Shown: positions 1,926 through 15,510 of the stretch, piece after piece
Position numbering within the stretch: the first letter of the stretch is position 1
Layout: each line of letters opens with the position of its first letter
Notes under the pieces: generated by a model
Told to the model about the DNA's origin: nothing
Databases searched by the model: none
The model's input: only the letters and a program-made list of their open reading frames with translations
Made by a program: the position numbers and the translations under genes
Assembly: GCA_023131225.1 (NCBI GenBank)
Contig: JAGLZW010000009.1
Coordinates: forward strand, 1 to 64,000
Length of the DNA: 64,000 nt
Source of the DNA: Candidatus Bathyarchaeota archaeon
Lineage (GTDB): Archaea; Thermoproteota; Bathyarchaeia; Bathyarchaeales; SOJC01
Direction of reading: 5' to 3'

Positions 1926-2272
1926 AGAAAATTTTTTTACAACAACGAACACCGCATGCATGCATGTATATGATGGAAAAGCATGGTAAATTGTAAAAAA
2001 TAGTTGTAAAAAAACTGTGAAAATCCCTTTTTCTCTGGAAACCCTGATTTTACCGTAGACAACAATGGAAAAAAGGTTGTCGCGATTTTGAGTTTTTTAC
2101 GACCTTGAAAAAGAGGCTGAAACGCCTGTTTTGAGCTGCTTTCCTGATTTAGGTCTAACTCATTAACCTAGAAGATTGGGTAACCATTGCGCAACCGTTG
2201 CCTCAACTTTGAGTTTACCATAGATTTACATGGTTAATCGGTGTACTTAGGTCAGAATAGAGGAGTGACTCA
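1926..2272. repeat. Left island edge: alternating Y/R run and TTGTAAAAAA motifs
   Basis: This gene-free stretch holds TTTTTTACAA (1933-1942), a perfect 20-nt alternating pyrimidine/purine run with three overlapping CATG units (1953-1972), and two copies of TTGTAAAAAA (1991-2000 and 2004-2013). The same word set recurs at 14648-14721. No gene is visible in the rest up to 2272. It may be the left boundary of the accessory island. Confidence 0.45.
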
Positions 2273-2563
2273 ATGAAGAAAAAAGATAAGACGCCTGCAG
2301 AAAAGCAGAATAAGAAGCCTCAAAGTCAAAGCAAGGTTCACAAGTCAGGAATCAGCTTTGATTCAGAAGTATGGAAGCAGCTAGAAAACTACGCAGGGTC
2401 AGAGTTCAAGGGAAATAAGTCAAAGGCATGCATTAATCAGCGTCTCAAAGGTTTGCTGTTTTCCCAAATATATTCTAGGGATCTCTATTTTTCTCCCAAA
2501 ATACAGATCCAGCTGCATGCATGCCCTCAAAAGATGAATGTGACAATTTTAAATGGTTTTTAA
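2273..2563 (+). CDS. Small ribbon-helix-helix-like protein, C-terminus possibly replaced
   Basis: A 96-aa ORF with a Lys/Gln-rich basic leader (residues 1-24), then a segment (SGISFDSEVWKQLENYAGSE) resembling the strand-helix start of RHH/CopG DNA-binding proteins, then NKSKACINQRLKGLL as a candidate second helix. After about residue 63 the sequence stops looking like a folded protein. That tail contains an alternating GCATGCATGC run at 2514-2524, so the original 3' end may have been lost by rearrangement. GAGGAGTGACTCAATG gives a usable ribosome binding site. It could be a plasmid- or virus-type regulator. The family call rests on a pattern only. Confidence 0.45.
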   Translation: MKKKDKTPAEKQNKKPQSQSKVHKSGISFDSEVWKQLENYAGSEFKGNKSKACINQRLKGLLFSQIYSRDLYFSPKIQIQLHACPQKMNVTILNGF

Positions 2564-2662
2564 AATGGTTTGGATATCATTGATGCGCGCACAAATAACG
2601 ATCTGAAGCAGTAACAATATTGATTTAAAATTACATACTTTTAAATGCGTAGTAGTTTATTG

Positions 2663-2676
2663 GTTAATTAAATAAA
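2663..2676 (+). promoter_or_regulatory. Putative TATA region for the nurA-herA cluster
   Basis: TTAATTAAATAAAC lies about 50 nt before the nurA-like start in an A/T-rich leader (2630-2721). It is the strongest TATA-like element in front of the cluster. The transcription start is inferred, not seen. Confidence 0.3.
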
Positions 2677-2721
2677 CTTTCAATATTCACCAACTCTATT
2701 AGAGATTGATTCAAACAGTAT

Positions 2722-3792
2722 ATGTGGTTGGGAGTGTCGAAGATCGTTAGTGTTCCTAGGCAACCCGTTGGAATGAGTGTCTCAAAGAACAGTAGGTTGC
2801 TCTTTCATCCAACCTTTGAAGAAACACTAACAGAGCTTAAAAGAAAGAAAATTAGGTTGCCAAATAAACCCACAGATCAAGAGTTAGACTTCCGTGAATA
2901 TGGCTACCCACAAGATGGCGAATTAATAACGGGTGTTGAAGACTTCGGCAAACGTAAACTTGATCCTAATAAGGGAGAAGAAATCTGCAAATCTTCTCTT
3001 ATCTGCGCCTATGACGAATCTGTTAATAAATTTGAGGGATTGGAAGGAACAGCGTATCTCACTTCCCATTCAATAATCGTTCATGGAGAATACGATTTTA
3101 TTCCTGTCGATCTGTTAACTTTCTATTTTTACACAAGGTCTTTGTTGCTATCTAAAGACTCTAAATATGTCAAATATTCAGAAAACACGGAAGTAGATTC
3201 AAAAAGAGATTACATTGATGACCGGAAAAAATTACTGAGCGAGAATGTCCCAGAGAATTCGATTATTTTCATTGACGGTCCACTCGTGGGGAGTCAAATG
3301 ACAAGACAAACAATTGACTTAAATAATATATTACTAAGGAAGAAAATCGCTCCAATTTTTTTTGTTAAGAACAGTAATAGCAATTTAGTTATAGAAAATA
3401 TTAAACATTTAAAAAATCGCTATAATTCCGATATGCATTGGTCCTATAATTTTCTCAAAGAGGGAGAACGAACTAGTCTCTTCAGATACGTTGATAAGAC
3501 AAATCGGGATTTCGCGAAGATCTTTTGTTATTTGAAAGCATTTGATGCAAGTCCACAAAGAATCGAAATTGACCTAAATACCTTCAGAGAATTCGCCAAT
3601 AGCATCAATGATTTGTTTGATTTGGCGTATTATCTGCTTCTTGCTCAAGGAGATCTGAAGAACCCACAGATTAGATCAATAGCAATTGCCGAAAAATATG
3701 CGCGAGCCACTTTAAGATTGATAAATCTTCCACAAATGATGAAAGAACTAGGAATAACTCCAACTATGAATCAAGAAAGGTTTGCGTGGTAG
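2722..3792 (+). CDS. nurA: NurA-like nuclease of the island HerA cluster
   Basis: Likely a DNA nuclease of the NurA family (RNase H-like fold), which with HerA resects DNA ends in archaea. 356 aa, within the family range. Visible are an Asp-containing strand (ICAYDES, D98), a second Asp strand (IIFIDGPLVG, D185) and a C-terminal segment (NPQIRSIAIAEKYA) in the place of the conserved NurA C-terminal region. It ends 3 bp before the HerA-like gene, which supports the pairing. In core archaeal genomes nurA and herA usually sit with mre11 and rad50; here mre11 is absent and the neighbours are an SMC-like ATPase and a Dam methyltransferase. Base composition is A/T-rich, unlike flanking core genes. 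The family call is fairly secure; a defence role is inferred. Confidence 0.75.
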   Translation: MWLGVSKIVSVPRQPVGMSVSKNSRLLFHPTFEETLTELKRKKIRLPNKPTDQELDFREYGYPQDGELITGVEDFGKRKLDPNKGEEICKSSLICAYDESVNKFEGLEGTAYLTSHSIIVHGEYDFIPVDLLTFYFYTRSLLLSKDSKYVKYSENTEVDSKRDYIDDRKKLLSENVPENSIIFIDGPLVGSQMTRQTIDLNNILLRKKIAPIFFVKNSNSNLVIENIKHLKNRYNSDMHWSYNFLKEGERTSLFRYVDKTNRDFAKIFCYLKAFDASPQRIEIDLNTFREFANSINDLFDLAYYLLLAQGDLKNPQIRSIAIAEKYARATLRLINLPQMMKELGITPTMNQERFAW

Positions 3793-3795
3793 AAT

Positions 3796-5364
3796 ATGTG
3801 GATAGTTTTGGGTGAAGAAAAAGGAAGAATAAAACTCGTTTCTTCTTCAAAAATGGATGGAATCTTACCTAAAGGGTCATTCCTTACTGTTGAATCAAGC
3901 GAGAATAAACATATCTTGAGAGTTGTAGATAGCCAACAACACGAACCTTATTCCCCAACACCAATGTTAGTTGATATGGATTTGACACCTCTCAAACAAG
4001 ATCAGAAATGTCAAAATGTAATCCATGCCGTAAGAGTTGGGGACATAAAAGAAAGAAAAGACGGACTTATTGATTTTATTAGACCTCAACTACCAGCAAG
4101 AAGATCTAATCAAAGTGAAATTGATAGTGTGCTAGGTTTAAAATCGGTTGGTCCACAAGTTTTTGTAGCAACAGTCCAAGGTGGAAAGAATCAGATTCTT
4201 CGAGATGAGAAGGGTACTCCAATTATTGTTTCGGTTCCAACTGAATTTTTCTATCACCAGATATTAATTTGTGGAAAAACTGGGAGTGGAAAAACAGTTG
4301 CATCCAAGTATCTTGCTCAATACTTCGTTGAAGAACTAGAACACTATGGTGCCGTCTTAGCAGTAAACGTAAAGGACGTAGATTTCCTCAAAATGGAAAA
4401 AGCATCTATTACTGCTAACCCAAATTTGGTAGAGGAATGGAAATCAATCCAAAAAACTGCTCATGGAATCGAAAATTTTACAGTGTACTATCCTGCAAAC
4501 CAAATAATCGATCCCGGTCAAGGAGTAAATATGGATGTATGCAAGAACATTACACTCAATGTCCGTCTTATTGATCCTGAGGCTTTGTCGGGTCTTATAG
4601 TTGGATTCTCAGACATTGCAGCACAACATTTACCAAACATATTTAGAGCTTGGCAACATAAAAGACTTGAATCAAACCATGGAGAGTTTACTTTCGGAGA
4701 TTTTGTAAGGTATTTTGCCTTAGGTTCTGAGGACAATTATCGTTATGAAACGATTAATGCACGAGGAGATCCACTTCAAGTAACTTTACCTTGGGGTACT
4801 TATCATAATATTTTGCGAAATTTGAATTATGCTACAGAATTCTTTGATGATGAAACAGCCGAAACAATAAGCGCTCAAGATATTTTAGTTCGAGGAAAGA
4901 TGTCTGTCATAAATGTTGCCGGAGAAAAAGGAATACAATTTGGATCTGTAATTTTACGACACCTATTGAAAAACATTGTTGAAGAAAAAAGTACTGGAAG
5001 GTCTAAAGTTCCTATATTAATTATTATTGACGAAGTACATCAATTTTATGATACAGGTAGTTCGCGAGAAGCACTTGGTGAATTAGATACAATATGCCGT
5101 ACTGGTCGAAGTAAAGAAATTGGAGTGATATTCTCGTCACAGAATCCTTCAGATATACCAAGAGGGTTGTCAAACGTTATTAATACTAAATTCTTTTTCA
5201 AATCTGACAGGTCTTCAGCAAAAGATTATGGGATTTCTGTAACAAATGAAGAAGTTCAGAATCTTGGTAAGGGATATGCGATAGCCAATATTCATGGTTT
5301 ACCCCAAGTTAGGGTTGTGAAATTTCCGTTAGCTTTGTCAGGTGTATTTGAAAAAGGAGTTTGA
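3796..5364 (+). CDS. herA: HerA-like hexameric DNA translocase
   Basis: HerA/FtsK-superfamily ATPase that pumps double-stranded DNA and drives NurA cleavage. 522 aa. The N-terminal ~110 residues look like a HAS-barrel domain. Walker A GKTGSGKT is at residues 160-167, Walker B ILIIIDEVHQF near 410, followed by TICRTGRSKEIGVIFSSQNP, which fits the sensor region of the family. It starts 3 bp after the NurA-like gene and precedes a 51-aa ORF, so the genes are almost certainly co-transcribed. The HAS barrel and the NurA partner argue against a conjugation ATPase. That this is an island copy distinct from a housekeeping herA is an inference; no other copy is in the window. Confidence 0.85.
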   Translation: MWIVLGEEKGRIKLVSSSKMDGILPKGSFLTVESSENKHILRVVDSQQHEPYSPTPMLVDMDLTPLKQDQKCQNVIHAVRVGDIKERKDGLIDFIRPQLPARRSNQSEIDSVLGLKSVGPQVFVATVQGGKNQILRDEKGTPIIVSVPTEFFYHQILICGKTGSGKTVASKYLAQYFVEELEHYGAVLAVNVKDVDFLKMEKASITANPNLVEEWKSIQKTAHGIENFTVYYPANQIIDPGQGVNMDVCKNITLNVRLIDPEALSGLIVGFSDIAAQHLPNIFRAWQHKRLESNHGEFTFGDFVRYFALGSEDNYRYETINARGDPLQVTLPWGTYHNILRNLNYATEFFDDETAETISAQDILVRGKMSVINVAGEKGIQFGSVILRHLLKNIVEEKSTGRSKVPILIIIDEVHQFYDTGSSREALGELDTICRTGRSKEIGVIFSSQNPSDIPRGLSNVINTKFFFKSDRSSAKDYGISVTNEEVQNLGKGYAIANIHGLPQVRVVKFPLALSGVFEKGV

Positions 5365-5368
5365 ACAG

Positions 5369-5524
5369 TTGGATCAGTATTCTATTATAAGTTTTCTAGA
5401 GTCGCTTGCTGACGATGAGATAGAAAAAGTACTGATAAGACTAATTTCCGAGGGTAATCAAGGTGAGGATTTACTGAGAAAACTCCTCGAAACAATTGTG
5501 GGGATAAAAAATGATAACATATGA
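5369..5524 (+). CDS. Small acidic helical protein between herA and the SMC gene
   Basis: A 51-aa product read from TTG at 5369, behind the ribosome binding site AAGGAG (5354-5359) that lies inside the end of the HerA gene; a GTG at 5342 would overlap herA more. The sequence (SIISFLESLADDEIEKVLIR) predicts two amphipathic helices and no catalytic motif. Its last codons overlap the SMC start at 5511, suggesting translational coupling. No family is recognised. Tight packing makes it a candidate adaptor between the translocase and the SMC-like ATPase. Confidence 0.5.
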   Translation: MDQYSIISFLESLADDEIEKVLIRLISEGNQGEDLLRKLLETIVGIKNDNI

Positions 5525-7661
5525 CTACCTTATCGAGAGAAATCTTGGTCAAGGTAAATCAATCAGGTTCGATCCAGAGCAAATACCAACTAGACTTGAG
5601 AATGTTGTCGTAATTGAAGGCCCAAATTCATCTGGAAAAAGTACTCTCCTGAATATAATTGCTTTGGGGCTTTTCGGTATGAAAAGTTCAAGAATTAACT
5701 TTATTTTGAAAAGTAAATTAGATTCTCTATTAGATTTAAATCATCAAAAAATTACGTTTTCATTTAAAATTGTTTCAAAAAACGGAAAATTTACCTTGAA
5801 ATCAGAAAAAGCTGACATTAATGGAAATGAAATTATTGTGGAAGAAAGCGTTGACGGGAAAAAATTTAAACCTTTGAGTTTTGAGAATTTTCAAAGAAAA
5901 TATAATCTAATTTATGATATACCCAATAATCCAACTGAAAGGCTACCTGAGTTACTTAAAGAACTAAAAGATGAACAGCTTCAATTTGGGAATAGCTTCA
6001 AAAATTTTGGATTTTATTTGCATAATGTTATTACGGAAATAAATAGTTCTAGGAATCCTAAACGTCTTGAAGAACTTAGGAGAAAGCTTGCTGATGAAGA
6101 GAAAAAGAAGGGAGAATTAGCTAAAGAACTGCCTGAATTAGAGGCTTTTTTGAACCAGCTAGAAATGAATGCATATATTGATTACTTCTACCACTATTCG
6201 AATGAAGGCGAATTCTTAACAAGGAAAATCGACAAACTAGAAAGAGAAATTGGTAAAATAAAAAGAGATGGCAAAAAAATAACCAGGAGTATAACAAATA
6301 ACAGGAAAAAATTGGCTAGGCTCCGAAGAGAATTTAGTGAATATTATAAAAAAGTTACTCCATTAATTAAAAATGCATTACCAAAAAATGAACGATCACG
6401 ATTTAATATTTGGAAGGATGTTAACCCATATTGTGCTGAAAGTAACGAACTTAACACTGTGAAAATCGAAGCTACGCACTTTCAAGATATATTTTCTAAA
6501 GAAATTGAGGTACTGAAAAAAGATCGATCGTTTATAGATGCTAAGATAATGGCGCAATTATTCGAGGCTTTGAGCGAATTTGAGGATTCTATGCTGAGGA
6601 TTCCTGAATTGGAAGTTACGATTGGGGAATTAGTTCGTATATTGAAAAAAGAAAGTAATACTAGTTCTATTCTGATTACGAAATATGATACTCTGAATAA
6701 AATTATTGGGGACCTTAAAAATCTGAAACTAACTGTCGGGGAGTTACAAAAAATTGAAATGGCGTTGAAACTAGAATCAGATGTAAGTGAAGAATTTTGT
6801 GAAGAAACCATTGATGCCTTCGATGAAAACAATCGTCAATTAAAAGATATGAAAAATGATCTGGAGTTATATGCAATTAAGTGTAATGAGTATTTTCAAC
6901 GAAGTATTTCTAAAGGTATTAATCAACTGCAACTTGAAAACATGACATACAGAGAGTGCGTTAAGGAGATACCCAGAAATAGTAAAATCAATCAATATTT
7001 ATCACTAAGTGAAAAACAGGTCTTAGAACAAATCAAAAAACTACAAGACGACATTATTGAAAAAAGGGGAGAATTGTCAGGTCGTGAAGTAGTAATAACC
7101 CAGTATAGAAAGAACGTCAAACATTTAGAGAACCAAAAACCGCATAAATTTGAGAAACAAGTCGAGGTAATAGGTAGTCTTCTCCGAAAGACTGATGCTA
7201 TTAGCCAAAAAATTCTGTCTAGTCATAACATTAACCTAAAGAACTTGATAAATAAGAAGATAAAAGTGGAGCAAAAATTAAAGACGGAGGAGTTGAGGTA
7301 TTATGATGAAGTTTCTAAATATCTCGCTCACAGAATTGGCGCCTTCAGACATATTGACAAGATTTACAAAGCAAAAGTAGTTGATCTTATTTCAGGAAAG
7401 ATATTAACAGACAGCGAAGAGATAATTTACATTGGTGATATGGGTACTGGGCAAAGTCAAAGTGCGTATATTCTCAGTTTACTTAATGTAAAAGATGATA
7501 ATAGGAAGATAATAGCTCTTTTTGATGAGATTGCGATGATGGATGATGAATCTCTTAAACCAATTTATTCAAGATTGCGAGAACTCTACAAATCCAATAA
7601 GCTTCTGTTAGGAATTCTGGTTCAACGAAGTAACGAACCTGCAGTTAAAGAATTAGTTTAG
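5511..7661 (+). CDS. SMC/Rad50-like ABC ATPase without zinc hook
   Basis: 716 aa with a split ABC head and long coiled coil. Walker A GPNSSGKS is at residues 37-44. The middle (about 180-600) is rich in Lys/Glu heptads. The C-terminal lobe has a signature-like GTGQSQSAYI near 643 and Walker B KIIALFDEIAMMDD near 665. Rad50 has a CxxC zinc hook in mid-coil; none is present here. No Mre11 gene is nearby. It overlaps the small ORF before it and is followed after 10 bp by a winged-helix-like gene. It is strongly A/T-rich. It may sense or loop invading DNA for HerA-NurA; this is inferred from context. RecN-like or AAA_23-type ATPases are alternatives within the same superfamily. Confidence 0.8.
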   Translation: MITYDYLIERNLGQGKSIRFDPEQIPTRLENVVVIEGPNSSGKSTLLNIIALGLFGMKSSRINFILKSKLDSLLDLNHQKITFSFKIVSKNGKFTLKSEKADINGNEIIVEESVDGKKFKPLSFENFQRKYNLIYDIPNNPTERLPELLKELKDEQLQFGNSFKNFGFYLHNVITEINSSRNPKRLEELRRKLADEEKKKGELAKELPELEAFLNQLEMNAYIDYFYHYSNEGEFLTRKIDKLEREIGKIKRDGKKITRSITNNRKKLARLRREFSEYYKKVTPLIKNALPKNERSRFNIWKDVNPYCAESNELNTVKIEATHFQDIFSKEIEVLKKDRSFIDAKIMAQLFEALSEFEDSMLRIPELEVTIGELVRILKKESNTSSILITKYDTLNKIIGDLKNLKLTVGELQKIEMALKLESDVSEEFCEETIDAFDENNRQLKDMKNDLELYAIKCNEYFQRSISKGINQLQLENMTYRECVKEIPRNSKINQYLSLSEKQVLEQIKKLQDDIIEKRGELSGREVVITQYRKNVKHLENQKPHKFEKQVEVIGSLLRKTDAISQKILSSHNINLKNLINKKIKVEQKLKTEELRYYDEVSKYLAHRIGAFRHIDKIYKAKVVDLISGKILTDSEEIIYIGDMGTGQSQSAYILSLLNVKDDNRKIIALFDEIAMMDDESLKPIYSRLRELYKSNKLLLGILVQRSNEPAVKELV

Positions 7662-7671
7662 AGGAATTTAG

Positions 7672-8586
7672 ATGAATTCTGAAGAAAAAAGATACCTAAA
7701 AGATTTTTACAATACGTTGAGAGATAATATTCGAAGAGAAAGAAGTCTAAAAAGTAAATCTGTCTTGGTGTCATTTCTAGAAAGTCGAAGCGCATCAAGA
7801 TTTAAGTTGCTAAAAAACTCGACAATTCATTCAAGTTTAATTCCAAATGAAATTCTTATGTCTCTATTATCAAAAGGTTACATTCAGGTCCTGAGCAACA
7901 TCAACACTTATGTTGTAACAGCTAAGGGCGTTTGGGAAAATGAGCAAGATTTGGACATAATAAATGAGGACAAATTACTATCGTATATTAATACTAAATA
8001 TTTTACAGGTAAGCCTCCCGGCTCCAAATTTAAAAACGATTTGGATGATAAAGAAAAGACAATTCTTTTGGCTATGGTTTCAGCCAGAGCTTTTTCAGAG
8101 AACTCTTTGGCCGATCTAAAAAAAAGTGAAATGGTTAAGAACAAATGGAAAGAAATTCTGGAAAAATCGTATGACTTACTATACAGCCAAAATCAAATAA
8201 AAAAATCGAAGGAATCGTTCTTTAATAAGAAAGGAAACGAACATGTTGCTAGTAGCATATTCAGGCACAATAACCTGATGGTACAAAAAACAAGAGGAAT
8301 CTACGAATACAAAGGAAATTATCAATATTTTCTAAATCTATACGAGAACTCCGAATTTTCTACAGAAAAACTCAGTTACCTCTTCTGGAAAATTTTCAAA
8401 GGGGAAATTGATTCAAATTCAGTGGATGTGATAGTCGAATACTGCAACGATATTTCAAACAAAGAGAGTATCTATCTTTTTGATATGAAAGAACATATTT
8501 TCTCAATGCCAATTTATGACTCATTATTAAAAGACAATTTACTTGACTCACTAGCATCAAAAGCTAAATGGGCAAAGATAGGATAG
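7672..8586 (+). CDS. Unknown protein with winged-helix-like N-terminus
   Basis: 304 aa, mostly helical and Lys/Ser/Asn-rich. Residues about 45-85 (NSTIHSSLIPNEILMSLLSK, then GYIQVLSNINTYVVTAKGVW) have the helix-helix-wing order of a winged helix. The rest has no catalytic motif I can name. It begins 10 bp after the SMC-like gene with GAGGAATTTAG upstream. MukE/MksE-type winged-helix subunits partner SMC-like ATPases in known condensin-like defence systems, so a similar accessory role is possible, but no sequence match supports this. Confidence 0.6.
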   Translation: MNSEEKRYLKDFYNTLRDNIRRERSLKSKSVLVSFLESRSASRFKLLKNSTIHSSLIPNEILMSLLSKGYIQVLSNINTYVVTAKGVWENEQDLDIINEDKLLSYINTKYFTGKPPGSKFKNDLDDKEKTILLAMVSARAFSENSLADLKKSEMVKNKWKEILEKSYDLLYSQNQIKKSKESFFNKKGNEHVASSIFRHNNLMVQKTRGIYEYKGNYQYFLNLYENSEFSTEKLSYLFWKIFKGEIDSNSVDVIVEYCNDISNKESIYLFDMKEHIFSMPIYDSLLKDNLLDSLASKAKWAKIG

Positions 8587-8598
8587 CCGCCAAACAAC

Positions 8599-8607
8599 TT
8601 TTTAAAT
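8599..8607 (+). promoter_or_regulatory. TATA box for the Dam gene
   Basis: TTTTTAAAT is centred about 32 nt before the ATG at 8635, with no Shine-Dalgarno sequence between. This spacing fits a nearly leaderless archaeal mRNA. The methyltransferase could then be expressed apart from the upstream nuclease cluster, as needed if methylation protects the host. Confidence 0.5.
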
Positions 8608-8634
8608 GTTCAAATACTAAATTAACAAACAATT

Positions 8635-9444
8635 ATGGCAATTGTAAAAACCCCGTTAAGATATCCAGGTGGAAAGGCCAAAGCATTAAAAAAAATATTA
8701 CCTCATATTCCAAATGGCTTTTCTGAATATCGAGAACCGTTTCTTGGTGGAGGCTCCGTTTTTGTGGCTTTAAAACAACAAAACCCAAATTTATTTTGTA
8801 GAATTAATGATTTAAATAATGACGTTTCTTCTTTATGGATTTCCCTTAAGGAAAACCCAGACGAACTAATCGCTGCAATTAAAGAAATAAAAAACAGATG
8901 GACGAATGGCAAAAGTCTGTATAAGAAATTGGCCCATGCCAAAACTCAAGGGGTTTTTGGTCGAGCCCTAAGATTCTATATTTTAAACAGAATCACTTAC
9001 TCAGGCACAGTCGACTCTGGAGGATACTCTCCAGAATCTTTCGAGAAACGATTCACTTATTCACGAATTGAAAGTCTTCAACCTTTAGCTAACCTCTTAA
9101 AAAATGTGAAGATAACAAATGAAAGCTATGAGCGTTTGCTCTTTGAGAAAGGAAAAGATGTTTTCATTTTTTTAGATCCACCTTATTGGAAACCAAGAAA
9201 ATCACCATTATATGGAAGAAATGGGGACTTAAACAAATTTTTTGACCACAAACAATTCGCAGAAAACGTCAAAAAATGCAAACATAAGTGGCTTATTACT
9301 TGTGATGATTCAGACTTAATAAGGAGCTTATTTTCATTCGCATACACCTATCCCTGGGAAATGCTATACAATGGCTTGAATAAGAAAAAAGCAGTAAAGG
9401 GAAAAGAACTCTTCATAACAAACTACAAAATAAAAGATTTATAG
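8635..9444 (+). CDS. dam: Dam-type (D12 class) N6-adenine DNA methyltransferase
   Basis: Transfers a methyl group from SAM to N6 of adenine in duplex DNA. 269 aa, normal for the D12 class. Order of motifs fits the alpha group: LRYPGGKAKALKKILP (residues 7-22, near the SAM site), REPFLGGGSVFVA (motif I), then FLDPPYWKPR near 180 (motif IV, catalytic DPPY). The start is fixed by MAIVKTPLRYPGGK and a TATA box at leaderless distance. No cognate restriction endonuclease is adjacent; the neighbours are the NurA/HerA/SMC set upstream and a convergent SIR2 cluster downstream. The recognition site cannot be read from sequence. Confidence 0.92.
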   Translation: MAIVKTPLRYPGGKAKALKKILPHIPNGFSEYREPFLGGGSVFVALKQQNPNLFCRINDLNNDVSSLWISLKENPDELIAAIKEIKNRWTNGKSLYKKLAHAKTQGVFGRALRFYILNRITYSGTVDSGGYSPESFEKRFTYSRIESLQPLANLLKNVKITNESYERLLFEKGKDVFIFLDPPYWKPRKSPLYGRNGDLNKFFDHKQFAENVKKCKHKWLITCDDSDLIRSLFSFAYTYPWEMLYNGLNKKKAVKGKELFITNYKIKDL

Positions 9445-9507
9445 TCTGCAGAAGTTTAATAGCACGACGGTTTTAATTTGCTTTTATTTTTAAATTACAA
9501 TAAGCTT

Positions 9508-9526
9508 CGCGCGCGTGCATGCATAC
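9508..9526. repeat. 19-nt alternating pyrimidine/purine run between convergent clusters
   Basis: A perfect 19-nt alternating run (CGCGCGCGTGCATGCATAC) sits between the 3' ends of the Dam and ATPase genes. Such tracts can adopt Z-DNA. It shares GCATGC with runs at 1953, 14445 and 14708. Confidence 0.5.
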
Positions 9527-9625
9527 TCGCCAAAGCGTTTTCTTCACATTGTGTCTACCTTTATTGGATTACTAACCAAGATCATTAATGCTAGGATTCC
9601 AAAACGCTTTAACCCTAAGGGCTAA

Positions 9626-10768
9626 TCACTGCTCCAATACAAGTTTTCCGTCTTTGAATTCCTGCCACTCGTTTTCAGCTCCAATCAGAACTCTTTGATG
9701 ATTGGTGGTATCCTTAATGAAGTTCTCATCAATTGATACATGCTCCTCCATTGCTCCTTCAATGAGTGCATTATGCAGAGATATAATAAAGGGTCGTGGG
9801 TTTTTCTGGGTCTTCAAATGAATGTATCTGAGAACGCTCTCCTCAAACGGATATAACTCTGGCTTCTCACTTCCCTCGATTTTATACTTGCCGAGATAGT
9901 AAGCGGCTAGTCTGATTGCATCATCTGATTCGAATGGTCCTAAGGTAACTGTTCTCTCCTCCCCGATCTGAACAATCTCCGGAATGTACTCACTAGCAGC
10001 CTTACCGAAGATTTCAAATGCTTCTGGATGCATAGAAACTACTAGTGAAGCCCTCCCCAATGTAGCTCTGAAAAGATCGTTAATGTCATTGCCAAGCCTG
10101 TCAAGAGCTGCGTATCCTCTATGCGACCGCACGAATTCCTCAAATTGATCTATGAAGACTATCAATCTTCCCAATTTACACGCCTCCATCAATGCAACAA
10201 CATATCCAAAGACTTCCGTGGCCGAAGAGACCCTAATAGATCTTCGTATGTTGGCAAACTTCTTTGCTGTATCTTCCGGACCCATTTCAAGAATACGGAC
10301 AAGTGCTCCTACTAAACTTGGAAGTGGAATTCGATAAGAAGCCTTTAGCATATCTCGAATTCTACTATAGGATATTTCCCCAATCGCTTCTTTCATATTG
10401 TCAAAAACACCTTCAGCAACCATGGAGTCTATTATTCGTCCCAAAGTCGGAGATGTGGAATAGCCTCCTGTAGCTTCTGCCCATACCACATTTTGCTTTG
10501 CATCATAGAGCTTCCAATAGGCTGCCGCCATTAAAGCAGATTTTCCAGTTCCTTTGACAACACGAGGAGAATATACAAATATCAGGTTTGGCTTTCTGAC
10601 TATCAAGGACATGAGTTTTCCCATTTCTTTGGTAACTATTTCTTCGCAAAAAAGACGTCCGTTTAGTCTTCTATCATTCGCCCATATGTTGATAAAAGCC
10701 TGGTCTGTGAATGGATTGTCTTTTAGATCATACCTTCTCCAATCATGTTTTCTCCATTCAAATTCCAT
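9626..10768 (-). CDS. P-loop ATPase (STAND/Orc-like) of the SIR2 cluster
   Basis: 380 aa. The phosphate-binding loop VVKGTGKSALM (around residues 70-80) keeps GK[S/T], but the first Gly of the usual GxxxxGK is replaced by Val. Walker B is RLIVFIDQFEEF near 205, followed by a sensor-like strand ASLVVSMHPEAF. The C-terminal part resembles the lid and helical region of Orc/Cdc6- or STAND-type ATPases. It is the last gene of a three-gene minus-strand operon, starting 3 bp after the middle gene stop. It may be the sensor or regulator that controls the SIR2-like effector; this role is inferred. Confidence 0.7.
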   Translation of the reverse strand: MEFEWRKHDWRRYDLKDNPFTDQAFINIWANDRRLNGRLFCEEIVTKEMGKLMSLIVRKPNLIFVYSPRVVKGTGKSALMAAAYWKLYDAKQNVVWAEATGGYSTSPTLGRIIDSMVAEGVFDNMKEAIGEISYSRIRDMLKASYRIPLPSLVGALVRILEMGPEDTAKKFANIRRSIRVSSATEVFGYVVALMEACKLGRLIVFIDQFEEFVRSHRGYAALDRLGNDINDLFRATLGRASLVVSMHPEAFEIFGKAASEYIPEIVQIGEERTVTLGPFESDDAIRLAAYYLGKYKIEGSEKPELYPFEESVLRYIHLKTQKNPRPFIISLHNALIEGAMEEHVSIDENFIKDTTNHQRVLIGAENEWQEFKDGKLVLEQ

Positions 10769-10771
10769 TTA

Positions 10772-11812
10772 TCATTTCCTCCTTTTTAGCAATCTTACGT
10801 ATGTTACATACATTTCTGCATTGATCTGTGGAAGATTCAGTCCCTTTATGAGGACTCCACTAGATCTACCAAGGAAGAGAGTACCTCTACTAAGCTCAAC
10901 AATCACTTCTGGGCTTCCCTTTGCTAAAGCTAGCAATTCATTATTGAATTGAGTATCGCTGATGCCTAGTTCTTCCGCAACTATATCTCGAAGCTCCAAA
11001 ATATTCACAACATTTCCCCAAGAATTTCTTGTCAACAGCTTGTAAGCTCTAACTAGGGAGTCTTCAAAAGAATTAGTGGAGATCTTACGCTCATAGAGAA
11101 TACTTCCGTTTCTTAGCTTGAGATTCCTGCAATAGTTTCCGGAACTTTCTGCTTTCTCAGGAACGAACTCACAAGTTAAGCACAAATGTTCACGATCCTT
11201 TTGCATTCTCCAATTCAAAAGGCTGAAATCATACAACAGGTCTCTAATAGTGTAAAACGACGCAACATCTGTTTGAAACTCATTCTCCATGAGATAGTCT
11301 TTAATTCCGCTGATTCCAGTTCTCCCCTTGAACCTTCTTGGAATATGAAAGTGTCCACCAATTTCCTGAAGATGTGAGATGAAAAGAAAGTATGCTTTAT
11401 ATCTTGAAGCAAGAATGAGTTCTATCAGCGAGTCGATTGCTGAAGGATAATCTGACTCGATCAAGGAGTTAATGTTCCTGATTCGTTCTGGACATTGGAT
11501 TTTTCCGTTCACAACTTTGAAGATTCCAACTCCTTTTGCGAAAGCTACAGTGTCTCGTGCCATACTTGCATAAGAACGTCTTTTGGTATCACCTAGTTGA
11601 CGGAGGGCTCTTCTTGGTCCCATTTGTGTTATCAGAAGTCGCATTGATTCTCTTTTTACACGATCTTTCTCAATAAGCGTCCTGATGTTTTGAGAAGAGA
11701 AGATCTTACCTGAGTGAGTAACACTGTATTGGACTAGTTTGACGATTTGAGATTTGGATCTAACTTTTCTCACAGATCCCCACTGACATACGGTATCTGA
11801 TCGTTTTTTCAT
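10772..11812 (-). CDS. Unknown 346-aa protein between SIR2 and ATPase genes
   Basis: No family recognised. The product is basic at the N-terminus (KKRSDTVCQWGSVRKVRSKS). Residues about 20-95 look like a helix-turn-helix segment with a wing-like VGIFKVVNGKIQC. The end (SRGTLFLGRSSGVLIKG) may be a second beta-rich winged unit after IVAEELGISDTQFNNELLAL. Its start overlaps the SIR2 stop by one base (TAATG), a sign of translational coupling. It may bind nucleic acid and bridge sensor and effector, but nothing catalytic is visible. Confidence 0.6.
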   Translation of the reverse strand: MKKRSDTVCQWGSVRKVRSKSQIVKLVQYSVTHSGKIFSSQNIRTLIEKDRVKRESMRLLITQMGPRRALRQLGDTKRRSYASMARDTVAFAKGVGIFKVVNGKIQCPERIRNINSLIESDYPSAIDSLIELILASRYKAYFLFISHLQEIGGHFHIPRRFKGRTGISGIKDYLMENEFQTDVASFYTIRDLLYDFSLLNWRMQKDREHLCLTCEFVPEKAESSGNYCRNLKLRNGSILYERKISTNSFEDSLVRAYKLLTRNSWGNVVNILELRDIVAEELGISDTQFNNELLALAKGSPEVIVELSRGTLFLGRSSGVLIKGLNLPQINAEMYVTYVRLLKRRK

Positions 11813-12846
11813 TACAACACAGCCTTAATATCTGCATCGACATCTAGTTGTTCAAATTTTTTTGGAACAGCTATAAAACTGCTTGAAGGTAAGTGTCGTC
11901 GTCTGACGATACCCTTTGCATTTGGTGAAACTAGGATTACCTTAATGTCTCGGTTTCTTTCATAAGCATCAAGGAAAATCTGCCATACATTCGGATCTCC
12001 GAATTCATAGCCAACAACTACACAAAGATCGCACAAAGTGAGTTTCTCTTTCAGAAGATACAACAATTCCAACTGTGGCTCTTTTGCAATATAACTGTAT
12101 GTTCCTGGATATATTAAATCAGGAAATGCAGGTCTTCCTGCAATAACTAAGGACCCCCGGGGAGGATAAAAGGCAACTCGATCAATATCACCATTATCTA
12201 GTTTAGCGTACGTTATTGTCCCATGAAGCTTGAAAAGACGCAAGATTGTGCTTGCCTGTTCATAATAATATGGATCAAAGCGATAGTTCCCCCTCGTTTC
12301 TTCTCTGTATCCATCATATAATGCCAACCCATTCCTCCGACAATATTCCTCAATCGTGTTGTCGTAATTAGTGGTAAACACGTCGAGTGGTGGACAAGTA
12401 TCTCTTCCAGCCGGATTACAATTTCCAAGATCAAAACAGTTGCTTGTGTCCTTGAAGAACTTTCCATATATAGTGAAAATCAGCTCAGTAGTGCTTGCAT
12501 CATTGACACAGCATCTTCGCACGATATATTCCTTTATCCTTAGAGCGATTCTTTTGTCTCTCTTATTCGGCTTTAGGCTCCCAAGATTGTATTTTGTTAT
12601 CTCTGAAAAGAACGCTCCCATCTCATATATCATTCTACGGGGATTGGTCCAAAACTCCAAGACAGAAAGTATAGTCTCTATATCATTTCTAAATCCGTAC
12701 ATCTTTGCATGCTGCCTAGTGTCTTTTATCCTCTTGGAATAGTGAGTCAAATCTCTCTCTACAAGATCTGCTAGTTGCTTAGAGTCAGGAATATTAAAAG
12801 GAACGGAAGCTCCTGCACCAAGAAATACTAGGACTCTAAAGGTCAA
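11812..12846 (-). CDS. SIR2-like NAD-binding protein, putative defence effector
   Basis: 344 aa. The Rossmann signature VLVFLGAGASVP (residues 5-16), TTNYD (158-162), LFKLHGT with H208, and VVGYEFGDPNV near the C-terminus match the SIR2-like group seen in antiviral NADases rather than the protein-deacetylase sirtuins, whose zinc-binding CxxC pairs are not evident. Proteins of this group deplete NAD+ upon infection in several known systems. First gene of a three-gene operon with two unknown partners. Expression is probably driven from the divergent region 12847-13139. NADase activity is inferred from family motifs. Confidence 0.8.
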   Translation of the reverse strand: MTFRVLVFLGAGASVPFNIPDSKQLADLVERDLTHYSKRIKDTRQHAKMYGFRNDIETILSVLEFWTNPRRMIYEMGAFFSEITKYNLGSLKPNKRDKRIALRIKEYIVRRCCVNDASTTELIFTIYGKFFKDTSNCFDLGNCNPAGRDTCPPLDVFTTNYDNTIEEYCRRNGLALYDGYREETRGNYRFDPYYYEQASTILRLFKLHGTITYAKLDNGDIDRVAFYPPRGSLVIAGRPAFPDLIYPGTYSYIAKEPQLELLYLLKEKLTLCDLCVVVGYEFGDPNVWQIFLDAYERNRDIKVILVSPNAKGIVRRRHLPSSSFIAVPKKFEQLDVDADIKAVL

Positions 12847-13006
12847 GCTAGGACTCCCTTAATCTTCTTAACAGATTAATTGATCCCTGGCTAACTTGAA
12901 ATTTTCGCATCTTTCTTCACTATTTCTGTGTTTTTTGGGGTGCCTATGGAGGCCCTTTATCTTTCTGTATAGATCTCAGCCACATAACACAGCCACTCTG
13001 AATTCC

Positions 13007-13029
13007 GAGAACAAGGTTCTCTTTTTTTT
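13007..13029 (+). repeat. Hairpin GAGAAC-AAG-GTTCTC plus T8 in divergent region
   Basis: Perfect 6-bp inverted repeat (13007-13021) followed by eight T residues. It lies in the 293-bp spacer between the divergent SIR2 operon and the methyltransferase remnant. It could be a + strand terminator left from a lost gene, or an operator palindrome. Confidence 0.45.
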
Positions 13030-13060
13030 GGGGTTGTTGATTGAATCATGAAATTAGAAG

Positions 13061-13076
13061 TCCTCCTGGCGGAGGA
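13061..13076. repeat. Inverted repeat TCCTCC-TGGC-GGAGGA
   Basis: Perfect 6-bp arms around a 4-nt loop, about 70 nt before the methyltransferase start. It may be an operator or an mRNA hairpin. The GGAGGA arm has ribosome-binding-site character but is too far from the start. Confidence 0.35.
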
Positions 13077-13142
13077 ATTAATATACTAAAGGAGAGACAT
13101 AGCATAAATATGTTTTATCACACTTAGATAGCGGATGCTTTG

Positions 13143-13745
13143 ATGGCAAATAACAGAATAATGTTTGGCAATTCTGAGGATATGCGTGAACTCCAAGAAA
13201 ACAGTATCCATCTTGTTGCCACAAGTCCTCCATACTTCAATGCTCCTTTTGACTATCCAGACCTATGTGAGAGTTACGAGGAATTCCTAACATTGATTCG
13301 TAAAGTAGCAAAGGAGCTAAAAGGAATTCTTGATGAAGGCAGAATTGCGTGTTTTGTGTGTGATGATACTCTAATTAAAGGGAAGAAATATGCAATAGTT
13401 GCAGATATTACGAAGATTTTCATTGAAGAAGATTTTAGATACAGAGACAAAATCATATGGATTAAGCCAGAAGGTTACATCAGGATAAGTCAAAGAAGTG
13501 GTGTTCAAATCCAACATCCTAATCCCATGTATTATTATCCTGACAACTTACAAGAATCCATTCTAATTTTTCAGAATGGTGATTTTAATTATAATGAAAT
13601 TCCAAAAAAGAAAAGGGAAAACTCCAAGGTTGACATGGAAGAAGGGTCAGAAGGAAAATGGTATCTGACAGATTGGAAAATTACAAATGTTTTGCCTTTC
13701 AATAACCGACATGCATGCGTCGTTTGGAGAAAGGATACACGCTAG
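13143..13745 (+). pseudogene. Truncated N4/N6 DNA methyltransferase
   Basis: The N-terminal part carries the catalytic motif LVATSPPYFNAPFDY near residue 29 and continues as a beta-class or N4-cytosine type methyltransferase to ITNVLPFNNRH. The family then normally has a C-terminal segment ending in the FxGxGT SAM-binding motif; this is missing. The reading breaks at 13709-13720, a 12-nt alternating run containing ATGCATGC, and ends 10 codons later. The product would lack its SAM site and is probably inactive. The start is ATG 13143 (TTG 13140 is adjacent), with TTTTATCA at 13113 placed for a leaderless message. Confidence 0.75.
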
Positions 13746-14083
13746 CCGAGATTGTCATCACGCTAAAATTTGAACCCAAAGAAGTGGAGCGAATCTACAA
13801 TGGCTGGATTCGATTAAGTCAGAAAGATGCGAATTTTCCAAATTTAGAACGACTGAACCAAAACCTGATGAGTCATCTGCTGAAGGATCATAGCGAACTT
13901 GCCGATCTTCTACTAGATGCAAAGAACATTGGTGAATTCAGAAGATCCCACTGCGAACAGGTTGATAGAAGTGGATTATGTCTGTTCTGGACCTATGAAA
14001 AACGGGATGGCTCTGAATTTCATATAGAAGCATCTGCATTACGCTGTGCCTTCTGCATAAATTTTCATCAAAAAACGATATGA
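13715..14083 (+). CDS. Unknown HTH-like protein, possibly N-truncated at the GCATGC junction
   Basis: 122 aa. The first ATG lies inside the junction that ends the methyltransferase. Residues 5-32 (EKGYTLAEIVITLKFEPKEV) resemble a helix-turn-helix that normally sits deeper in a protein, so an N-terminal portion may be lost. The C-terminus has a Cys pattern (HCEQVDRSGLC, then LRCAFCINFH) that could bind a metal. No family is named. The sharp change between a methyltransferase and this gene at one short motif suggests a recombination scar. Confidence 0.45.
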   Translation: MRRLEKGYTLAEIVITLKFEPKEVERIYNGWIRLSQKDANFPNLERLNQNLMSHLLKDHSELADLLLDAKNIGEFRRSHCEQVDRSGLCLFWTYEKRDGSEFHIEASALRCAFCINFHQKTI

Positions 14084-14085
14084 CA

Positions 14086-14403
14086 TCATTCCGATCTAGA
14101 CAACAATCGCGCGCGAATATGCTCTTCAAATCCATGTTCAACCTGTCCCAAGCCACCACCGAAAACCAGCCAGTATCCTCCTTCCACATCTTGTTTTGGA
14201 GGTAAGAACAACATCTCCTCAGGTTTTCCTTTCAGCTGAACAGTGAAACTCATAAAACCTGGGGCATGAAGTTCTTTCAAAGACCCCATGTCTGGTTTTC
14301 CTGAGATCGGATCAATTTGGTGAAAGGCTTCATCTTTATTCTTGGCCCACACTACAAACCATTCTTCTGGATTTCCTGAATAATGCCCTATCCAAATCTT
14401 CAT
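14086..14403 (-). CDS. Small unknown protein
   Basis: 105 aa beginning MKIWIGHYSGNPEEWFVVWA, behind a strong ribosome binding site (GGAGGG, 7 nt before ATG). It is rich in aromatic residues and Gly (GGYWLVFGGGLGQVEHGFEE near the end) and probably a compact alpha/beta domain. No catalytic motif is recognised. It is convergent with the gene before it, with 2 bp between stops. It is carried in the accessory island; function unknown. Confidence 0.6.
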   Translation of the reverse strand: MKIWIGHYSGNPEEWFVVWAKNKDEAFHQIDPISGKPDMGSLKELHAPGFMSFTVQLKGKPEEMLFLPPKQDVEGGYWLVFGGGLGQVEHGFEEHIRARLLSRSE

Positions 14404-14444
14404 AAATCAACCCTCCAAAGAATATTATATCTCGATTAAATACT

Positions 14445-14461
14445 TATGCGCGCGCATGTAT
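14445..14461. repeat. 17-nt alternating purine/pyrimidine run
   Basis: A perfect alternating run (TATGCGCGCGCATGTAT) lies just upstream of the 105-aa gene. It is one of three runs of at least 17 nt within 12.5 kb. Confidence 0.5.
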
Positions 14462-14647
14462 CTAGTACTTTTATTGAAGTCTTTGATGGGAATGCATTTC
14501 TTATCCTTTGATAAAAGGTGTCATGCATAAGAATATCTGGATCATAAGATTTCATAAGATACTCACTATGCTGTTAAACAGCAAACCATGCTTGACGCGC
14601 ATGTCTAGTAACTTCCGAACCCCCATTTTTTTGCGACGACGACGCAA

Positions 14648-14721
14648 TTTTTTACAAGTGTAGAAGAAAAGGCAATGATAAGACTCCATGTAATTGTAAA
14701 AAACTATCATGCATGCATGCA
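14648..14721. repeat. Right island edge: TTTTTTACAA, TTGTAAAAAA and CATGCATGCATG
   Basis: TTTTTTACAA (14648-14657), ATTGTAAAAAAC (ending near 14704) and a 14-nt alternating run (14708-14721) repeat the words found at 1933-2013. The surrounding 14404-15510 has no convincing gene: the only + ORF (14713-14904) starts inside the run and has no family features. Together with the left copy it brackets the accessory genes. Confidence 0.45.
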
Positions 14722-14904
14722 ATGGATGTGAAATCATTCCCGGAGCTTGACAAAAAATGGTGGCTGTGGTTGGCCATTAATTCAAAACAAGCACGAAAGG
14801 AGAAAGGAGATGCTACTGCCTTCCACAACCCCCTTGTAGAAATTAGTTCTATAATTAAGTTCTATATAAAACTTTCACAAAGGATCATATTTCTAAAATA
14901 CTAG

Positions 14905-15510
14905 AAGGTTTTTTAGTTAAAAGTTACTGTTTTCCAAAACTTCTCCAAGATTACCGTATGTTCTCTGAATAACCTCTATGCAAGACAAGAAGTGTTGCCG
15001 TTTTGGATATAAACTAGTATGAAGTTTGTCGAAACTTATAGCAACACAACACTCTAACCGTGAAAAGATGCGACAAAACTGTTCACGCTAGAAATAAAGT
15101 ATGCCACATTCCCTAATTCCAATATTATTAGATAGCTTGGTGAATCGCCAACTATTTCGATCATTAGCATTTTCTATAAAAGCATGCCAGAAGTCTCAAA
15201 CCACAAAACAAGCAGTTTTGACAAGAAAGAAATTTTGAATGAATTAGAATTGCTGAGATACTCATGCGCTTGATAAGTGCAATGCGTTTGCCATTAGTTG
15301 GGATGGGAAGGTGGTTAAAAAGTCACTTTAAGGAGAAGGGAGTTCTTGAATTCCCCAACCAAGCTTAGTACACAACTTTTAGTTACTTAAGTTCTGGTTT
15401 CTTTCTAGTGCACAGAGCCATAATTTTCGCTCACATTCTGCAAACATAGTTTTATTAGCTTCACCGTAGATTTTTTATGAAAGTCTCGTAAAGAATTCTA
15501 GGGATTAAAA
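14905..15510. other. Gene-free stretch before the ribosomal operon
   Basis: About 600 bases without a coding frame or tRNA signature on either strand. The last 50 bases contain ATTTTTTATG (around 15468), a TATA-like element that could serve the L13e operon. Confidence 0.5.

Follow-up and report, generated by a model that had tools for sequence, protein, structure and literature searches.

The HerA ATPase and the NurA nuclease of archaea work together, with a HerA hexamer joining NurA in the ATP-dependent processing of double-stranded DNA (PMC5715905). Digestion is exonucleolytic and dependent on HerA whatever the structure of the end; it requires DNA ends, and NurA alone leaves circular double-stranded DNA uncut (PMC12977600). 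The part of this pair in end resection has recently been questioned, and the authors of the same study now suspect an antiviral role (PMC12977600). Here, we describe a cassette of five genes, with nurA and herA at its head and a DNA methyltransferase gene adjoining it, at positions 2722-9444 of a 64,000-nucleotide stretch of DNA (the window) from Candidatus Bathyarchaeota archaeon (GenBank assembly GCA_023131225.1, contig JAGLZW010000009.1, positions 1 to 64,000). We consider it probable that the cassette is a mobile, modification-linked and ATP-driven DNA-degrading defence, that is, a restriction-modification (R-M) system whose restriction part is HerA-NurA under the control of an SMC/Rad50-like ATPase. 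This reading draws on the identity, conserved motifs and order of the genes, their location in an island, their methyltransferase and defence neighbours, and a gene for a Sau3AI C-terminal domain found in the nurA operon of three Bacteroidota.

The preliminary description of the window had placed six plus-strand genes in this region, all of which are present where it put them. The first (2722-3792) codes for a NurA-family nuclease subunit (Pfam NurA, 3.1e-8), although its true start may be an internal ATG near 2773, and the second (3796-5364) for a HerA-type hexameric ATPase/translocase (Pfam HerA_C, 2.6e-8; DUF87, 1.3e-5). They are followed by a gene for a helical microprotein of 51 amino acids (aa) with a TTG start (5369-5524), which overlaps the start of the gene for an SMC/Rad50-like coiled-coil ATPase (5511-7661; Pfam AAA_23, 2.9e-7), and by a gene for a 304-aa protein with two winged-helix-like units (7672-8586), which may act with the SMC-like ATPase as its partner or site-reader. 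The gaps between the core genes measure 3 bp, 146 bp (occupied by the small open reading frame, ORF) and 10 bp. The sixth gene, on the same strand (8635-9444), encodes a D12 (alpha-class) DNA methyltransferase of the M.CbeI group (Pfam D12, 1e-33), with a predicted N4-cytosine methylation of GGCC. In NurA, the residues D98, D185, D237, H239 and E324 are invariant across 18 homologues, and HerA retains its Walker A (GKTGSGKT) and Walker B (LIIIDE) motifs along with an RxGRS motif that is a candidate arginine finger. The adjacency of NurA and HerA with intact motifs matches the archaeal NurA-HerA-Mre11-Rad50 repair set in that feature, and the cassette further resembles this set in keeping a Rad50-like ATPase in the operon. 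It departs from it in lacking Mre11 and the zinc hook, and in adding the microprotein, the tandem winged-helix protein, a methyltransferase neighbour and an island location. Gene calls and Pfam searches recovered no Mre11-like gene among the cluster genes of the window, as had been noticed at the outset.

The gene order proved to be recurrent. A search with HerA alone as the query across 398 genomes of the phylum returned, beside many weak matches, three more full-length homologues (42-73% identity), each with NurA, SMC-like and winged-helix genes around it in an unchanged order. Together with GTDB, viral collections and two more archaeal phyla, the phylum search yielded a total of 29 distinct loci. 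Thus, the order that the preliminary description proposed to look for in other genomes is present in several archaeal and bacterial phyla, and a chance assembly can be rejected. The archaeal hosts span, with Halobacteriota-type methanogens among them, Thermoproteota/Bathyarchaeota, Methanosuratincola, Methanosarcinales, Methanoperedens, Thermoplasmata and two Asgard-type genomes, and the bacterial ones Bacillota, Bacteroidota and Neomarinimicrobiota. Wherever the contigs reach, the order is constant, with the exception of the Bacteroidota, in which nurA is convergent with the herA-smc-winged-helix genes. The mean pairwise identity among the loci is highest for HerA (51%), followed by NurA (39%), the winged-helix protein (25%) and the SMC-like protein (23%); the low conservation of the latter two is as expected for target-facing parts.

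The distribution of the cassette is rare and patchy: it occurs in 2 of 163 genomes of the order, in 6 of 393 and 8 of 390 genomes of two archaeal phyla, and in a single one, the seed genome, of 296 from Flavobacteriales. By blastn, a genome of the same genus with flanks 96-97% identical has about 0.5 kb in place of 13.5 kb of the window (1943-15423, a block that contains the cassette), which indicates a strain-variable island as the site of the cluster. In the HerA tree, sequences of different archaeal phyla are intermingled, and the nearest relative of the window's protein comes from a metagenome-assembled genome (MAG) of Hodarchaeota (90% over 325 columns), a closeness that implies either recent transfer between phyla or contamination of that one MAG. 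A single viral contig with the cassette was found (L063, IMGVR_UViG_3300040733_000068), where it stands with an M.CbeI-type methyltransferase near terminase and head-morphogenesis genes; we read this copy as a defence cassette on board a head-tailed virus or provirus. No HerA match came from the collections of plasmid and phage records, and no SMC-like match from the plasmid ones.

The likeness to the archaeal repair set raises the question of whether the cassette serves repair. The preliminary description had reasoned that a sole herA-nurA pair in a genome lacking mre11/rad50 elsewhere would point to housekeeping. This genome of 1.9 Mb possesses a further NurA-HerA pair on contig 19, whose neighbouring genes appear to be orc1/cdc6 and that for the small subunit of DNA polymerase D. 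In addition, contig 10 ends in a Rad50-like fragment that carries a zinc hook and scores slightly under the Pfam cut-off. Hence, we reject the housekeeping assignment. A variant of it would make the cassette an alternative repair or recombination module, that is, duplicate NurA-HerA-Rad50 end-resection machinery that mobile elements carry to repair or integrate themselves. While its gene content and the copy on the viral contig would suit such a module, the missing Mre11 and zinc hook, the extra winged-helix and microprotein genes, the repeated methyltransferase and defence neighbours, the second NurA-HerA pair and Rad50 of the genome, and the restriction of the mobile-element evidence to one viral contig all speak against it, making it very improbable in our estimation. 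The recurrent gene order, the strain-variable island and the separate repair genes instead bear out the earlier proposal of a candidate defence system with a modification enzyme. Further HerA-type genes of this genome lie on contigs 28 and 17, each adjoining a gene that, by its sequence, may code for a divergent NurA-like protein.

The genes that set the cassette apart from the repair set show their own patterns. At the measured loci, herA and smc stand about 100-200 bp apart, and the space between them contains an ORF of 36-68 aa, which commonly overlaps the flanking stop or start codons. The predicted products are acidic and helical, with a common pattern of roughly DxExxIxxLI followed by EEIxxILL, and the ORF is found at every locus with a readable herA-smc gap save one. 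The 51-aa ORF of the window is thus a real, conserved microprotein gene of a size class that standard annotation has overlooked. At the exceptional locus (L053:4706-6145), the cassette is apparently disrupted, the SMC frame being truncated, with a DDE_3 transposase gene behind it, and the microprotein shortened.

We built AlphaFold2 models of the SMC-like and winged-helix proteins from the sequences of these loci only, and their confidence is to be read locally. The SMC-like model (predicted local distance difference test score, pLDDT, 87.5) finds its best PDB fold matches in Rad50 (E 3e-10), MukB, Smc5/6, Lamassu LmuB and JetC. The window protein has no CxxC motif, in keeping with the early observation that its coil is devoid of a zinc hook, and isolated CxxC motifs occur in 3 of 15 homologues. 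The 304-aa protein matched no Pfam or NCBIfam family; its model (pLDDT 91) displays two helix-plus-wing units, which backs the original guess of a winged-helix protein. The PDB matches of this model are weak and non-significant, with MukEF the best (E 0.05), then ScpB, FadR and MarR among others, and its likeness to SMC partner proteins is offered as a lead only.

The methyltransferase had been taken for a Dam adenine enzyme, an assignment that is probably wrong. It matches PDB 7m6b with E=2e-95 and DpnM with 2e-11, at 56% and 26% overall identity, respectively, and it scores 107 bits against the NCBIfam dam model TIGR00571, just under the cut-off of 114.85. The structure 7m6b is that of M.CbeI, an alpha-class N4-cytosine methyltransferase of GGCC (PMC8616854, PMC3425538); M.CbeI and DmtB, at 57% identity to each other, have the same specificity (PMC3425538). 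Over a 40-residue stretch, presumed to belong to the target-recognition region, the window enzyme is 72.5% identical to M.CbeI. Judging by these similarities, the METHYLTRANSFERASE of the window (8635-9444) is probably not Dam, and because of the homology to M.CbeI the mark that it lays is likely N4-methylcytosine (m4C) at GGCC. We had entertained a GATC theme common to all the methyltransferases, but the match of the window enzyme to M.CbeI led us to abandon it. The gene was also thought to have its own promoter: an archaeal TATA-like sequence, TTTTTAAAT, does lie at 8599-8607 on the plus strand, 27 nt 5' of the ATG, and as a pattern match makes a promoter possible; in two other loci (L089 and L090) the methyltransferase and winged-helix genes share 4 bp. 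Beside the window methyltransferase there is no gene for a stand-alone site-specific endonuclease, its neighbours being the cassette and an operon with a SIR2-domain gene.

Across the loci, a DNA methyltransferase belongs to the adjoining gene set in 20 of 29 cases, with at least four families represented: ten are M.CbeI-type D12 enzymes, two belong to another D12 group, three are of the N6_N4 type and five are 5-methylcytosine (m5C) enzymes. The M.CbeI-type genes lie downstream, on either the same or the opposite strand, or else upstream in divergent orientation. As the loci were collected with HerA as the only query, methyltransferases were not selected for. These observations argue for METHYLTRANSFERASES as recurrent partners of the cassette and, because several families and several orientations are involved, for a repeated, selected association, though these are counts, to which relatedness among the loci may contribute. 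The same breadth bears on the possibility of two unconnected parts: an orphan or anti-restriction methyltransferase gene that acts independently, and a core of five genes that works by itself in abortive infection or against plasmids, in the manner of DUF4297-HerA or Wadjet. Precedent for it comes from DUF4297-HerA, a HerA-nuclease system that kills without methylation (PMC11291478), and it would account for the loci that have no methyltransferase and for the presence of JetC and LmuB among the SMC-like fold matches. Yet the adjoining of unrelated methyltransferase families at so many loci is hard to explain as hitch-hiking, and we view a standalone system as unlikely.

Other defence genes also gather around the cassette. 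One locus (L047) adjoins a type I R-M system, HsdMSR; L051 has Hachiman HamA and a type IV restriction enzyme as neighbours; and L058 carries PD-λ-5, to which a D12 gene at first counted as the cassette methyltransferase was reassigned. The m5C enzyme of L050 had been considered a HaeIII-like GGCC enzyme; this was unsupported, its closest PDB relative being HhaI.

At four Bacteroidota loci, the neighbours are genes for an m5C methyltransferase and for an endonuclease of the Sau3AI family (for L055, NCBIfam 3e-165). In three of them, a gene overlapping nurA, upstream of it (e.g., L055:15791-16570, minus strand; likewise in L056 and L057), codes for a relative of the C-terminal non-catalytic half of Sau3AI, without the catalytic N-terminal half (blastp 1e-12; PDB 2reu/7xm0 1.5e-4; PADLOC REase_II 5e-10). 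The C-terminal half of Sau3AI is a DNA-binding domain. The overlap of the gene for this relative with nurA would tie NurA to the sequence that the adjacent R-M system targets, and it gives the strongest hint that the cassette reads sites.

These loci are also where another explanation must be faced, namely that the cassette is a RecBCD-like follow-up that destroys free-ended DNA, such as linear viral genomes and restriction fragments, with no reading of methylation, and that the methyltransferases and R-M systems cut its substrate or share its island. HerA-NurA does work from ends (PMC12977600), the Bacteroidota cassettes stand beside a full Sau3AI system and L047 beside a type I system, and some loci have no adjoining methyltransferase. 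Against this, no restriction enzyme was seen beside the methyltransferase, among the genes checked, in the ten M.CbeI-type loci; two of these have a methyltransferase gene that shares bases with the cassette operon; and the overlap between nurA and the gene for the Sau3AI C-domain points to site reading inside the cassette. We accordingly rate a pure end-degrading role as a minority possibility, of low probability.

Under the favoured reading of a modification-linked defence, the methyltransferase would mark host DNA, here most likely with m4C at GGCC, a chemistry predicted from homology. The SMC-like ATPase, the tandem winged-helix protein and the microprotein would then examine DNA that is without the mark or has foreign features, for example, free ends, after which the ATPase would load or license HerA, a gating step suggested by the gene content. 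By analogy with published HerA-NurA, the HerA hexamer would thread the duplex into a NurA dimer for digestion. We infer both the role of the microprotein and the protection that the mark would give against this cassette. Several points weigh against this reading. A defence function is predicted from sequence and genomic context; the end requirement of HerA-NurA (PMC12977600) leaves an attack on closed foreign DNA unexplained; no GGCC-reading subunit was identified in the archaeal loci; at least four loci (L051, L052, L092 and L094) have no methyltransferase in the flanks that were read; and the Bacteroidota loci already possess a complete Sau3AI R-M system, so that the cassette is not the sole nuclease there. 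A more specific proposal can be put forward only tentatively: a new R-M class with a processive, SMC-gated HerA-NurA pump-nuclease, interchangeable methyltransferases that set self and non-self, a dedicated site-reader (the stand-alone Sau3AI C-domain in Bacteroidota and the winged-helix protein elsewhere) and a regulatory microprotein.

Two further features of the island lie downstream of the cassette. A three-gene operon on the minus strand (9626-12846) encodes a SIR2-domain protein (11812-12846), a 346-aa protein with no relative among 320 genomes of the phylum, and a 380-aa protein with an ATPase-like look and only a sub-threshold nSTAND1 match; it is possibly a second, separate defence system. 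At 13140-13745 lies an N6_N4-type methyltransferase fragment without the half bearing the DPFLGSGTT motif, which is present in a 303-aa homologue at another locus (L038); it is probably a decayed gene.

If the defence reading holds, the cassette would represent a new ATP-dependent restriction architecture common to archaea and bacteria, in which an SMC/Rad50-like gate is combined with a HerA-NurA shredder and modular methyltransferases, and HerA-NurA would gain a clear antiviral setting. It would further predict that the host carries m4C at GGCC, that restriction depends on methylation and that the microprotein of 36-68 aa is essential.

The open-access literature that we searched contains no description of the NurA-HerA-SMC combination, though an earlier mention is possible. 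PADLOC and NCBIfam likewise list no matching system, the partial HerA and ATPase-head matches falling far below curated scores: the two NCBIfam HerA equivalog models gave 22-25 bits against cut-offs of 850-970, the figures for HerA_antiphage_2 being 22 and 850. The cassette shares with SIR2-HerA, DUF4297-HerA and the 'HerA/FtsK capture' systems (PMC10853773, PMC12839542) the pairing of a HerA ATPase with a nuclease in defence islands; it differs from them in that its nuclease is NurA, a protein of which the capture papers make no mention, in its constant SMC/Rad50-like, winged-helix and microprotein genes, and in its link to methylation. With BREX, DISARM and other multi-gene, ATP-dependent R-M-like systems, it has in common a multi-subunit ATPase machinery linked to a methyltransferase, but none of their hallmark components is among the annotated genes. 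Wadjet (JetABCD) and Lamassu (LmuABC) offer the parallel of an SMC/Rad50-like coiled-coil ATPase, with fold matches to JetC and LmuB, controlling a nuclease, and the winged-helix partner recalls MukE/JetB, albeit by a non-significant fold match. In contrast to these systems, HerA-NurA takes the place of the nuclease; JetD and LmuA were not recognised in the cassette, and PADLOC returned no JetD, JetA or LmuA match among its core genes. Finally, the type II systems M.CbeI/R.CbeI and Sau3AI are echoed in the M.CbeI-group methyltransferase of the window, the M.Sau3AI-type methyltransferase of the Bacteroidota and the Sau3AI relatives; unlike those systems, the archaeal loci have, among the genes checked, the five-gene cassette where a classical restriction enzyme would stand.

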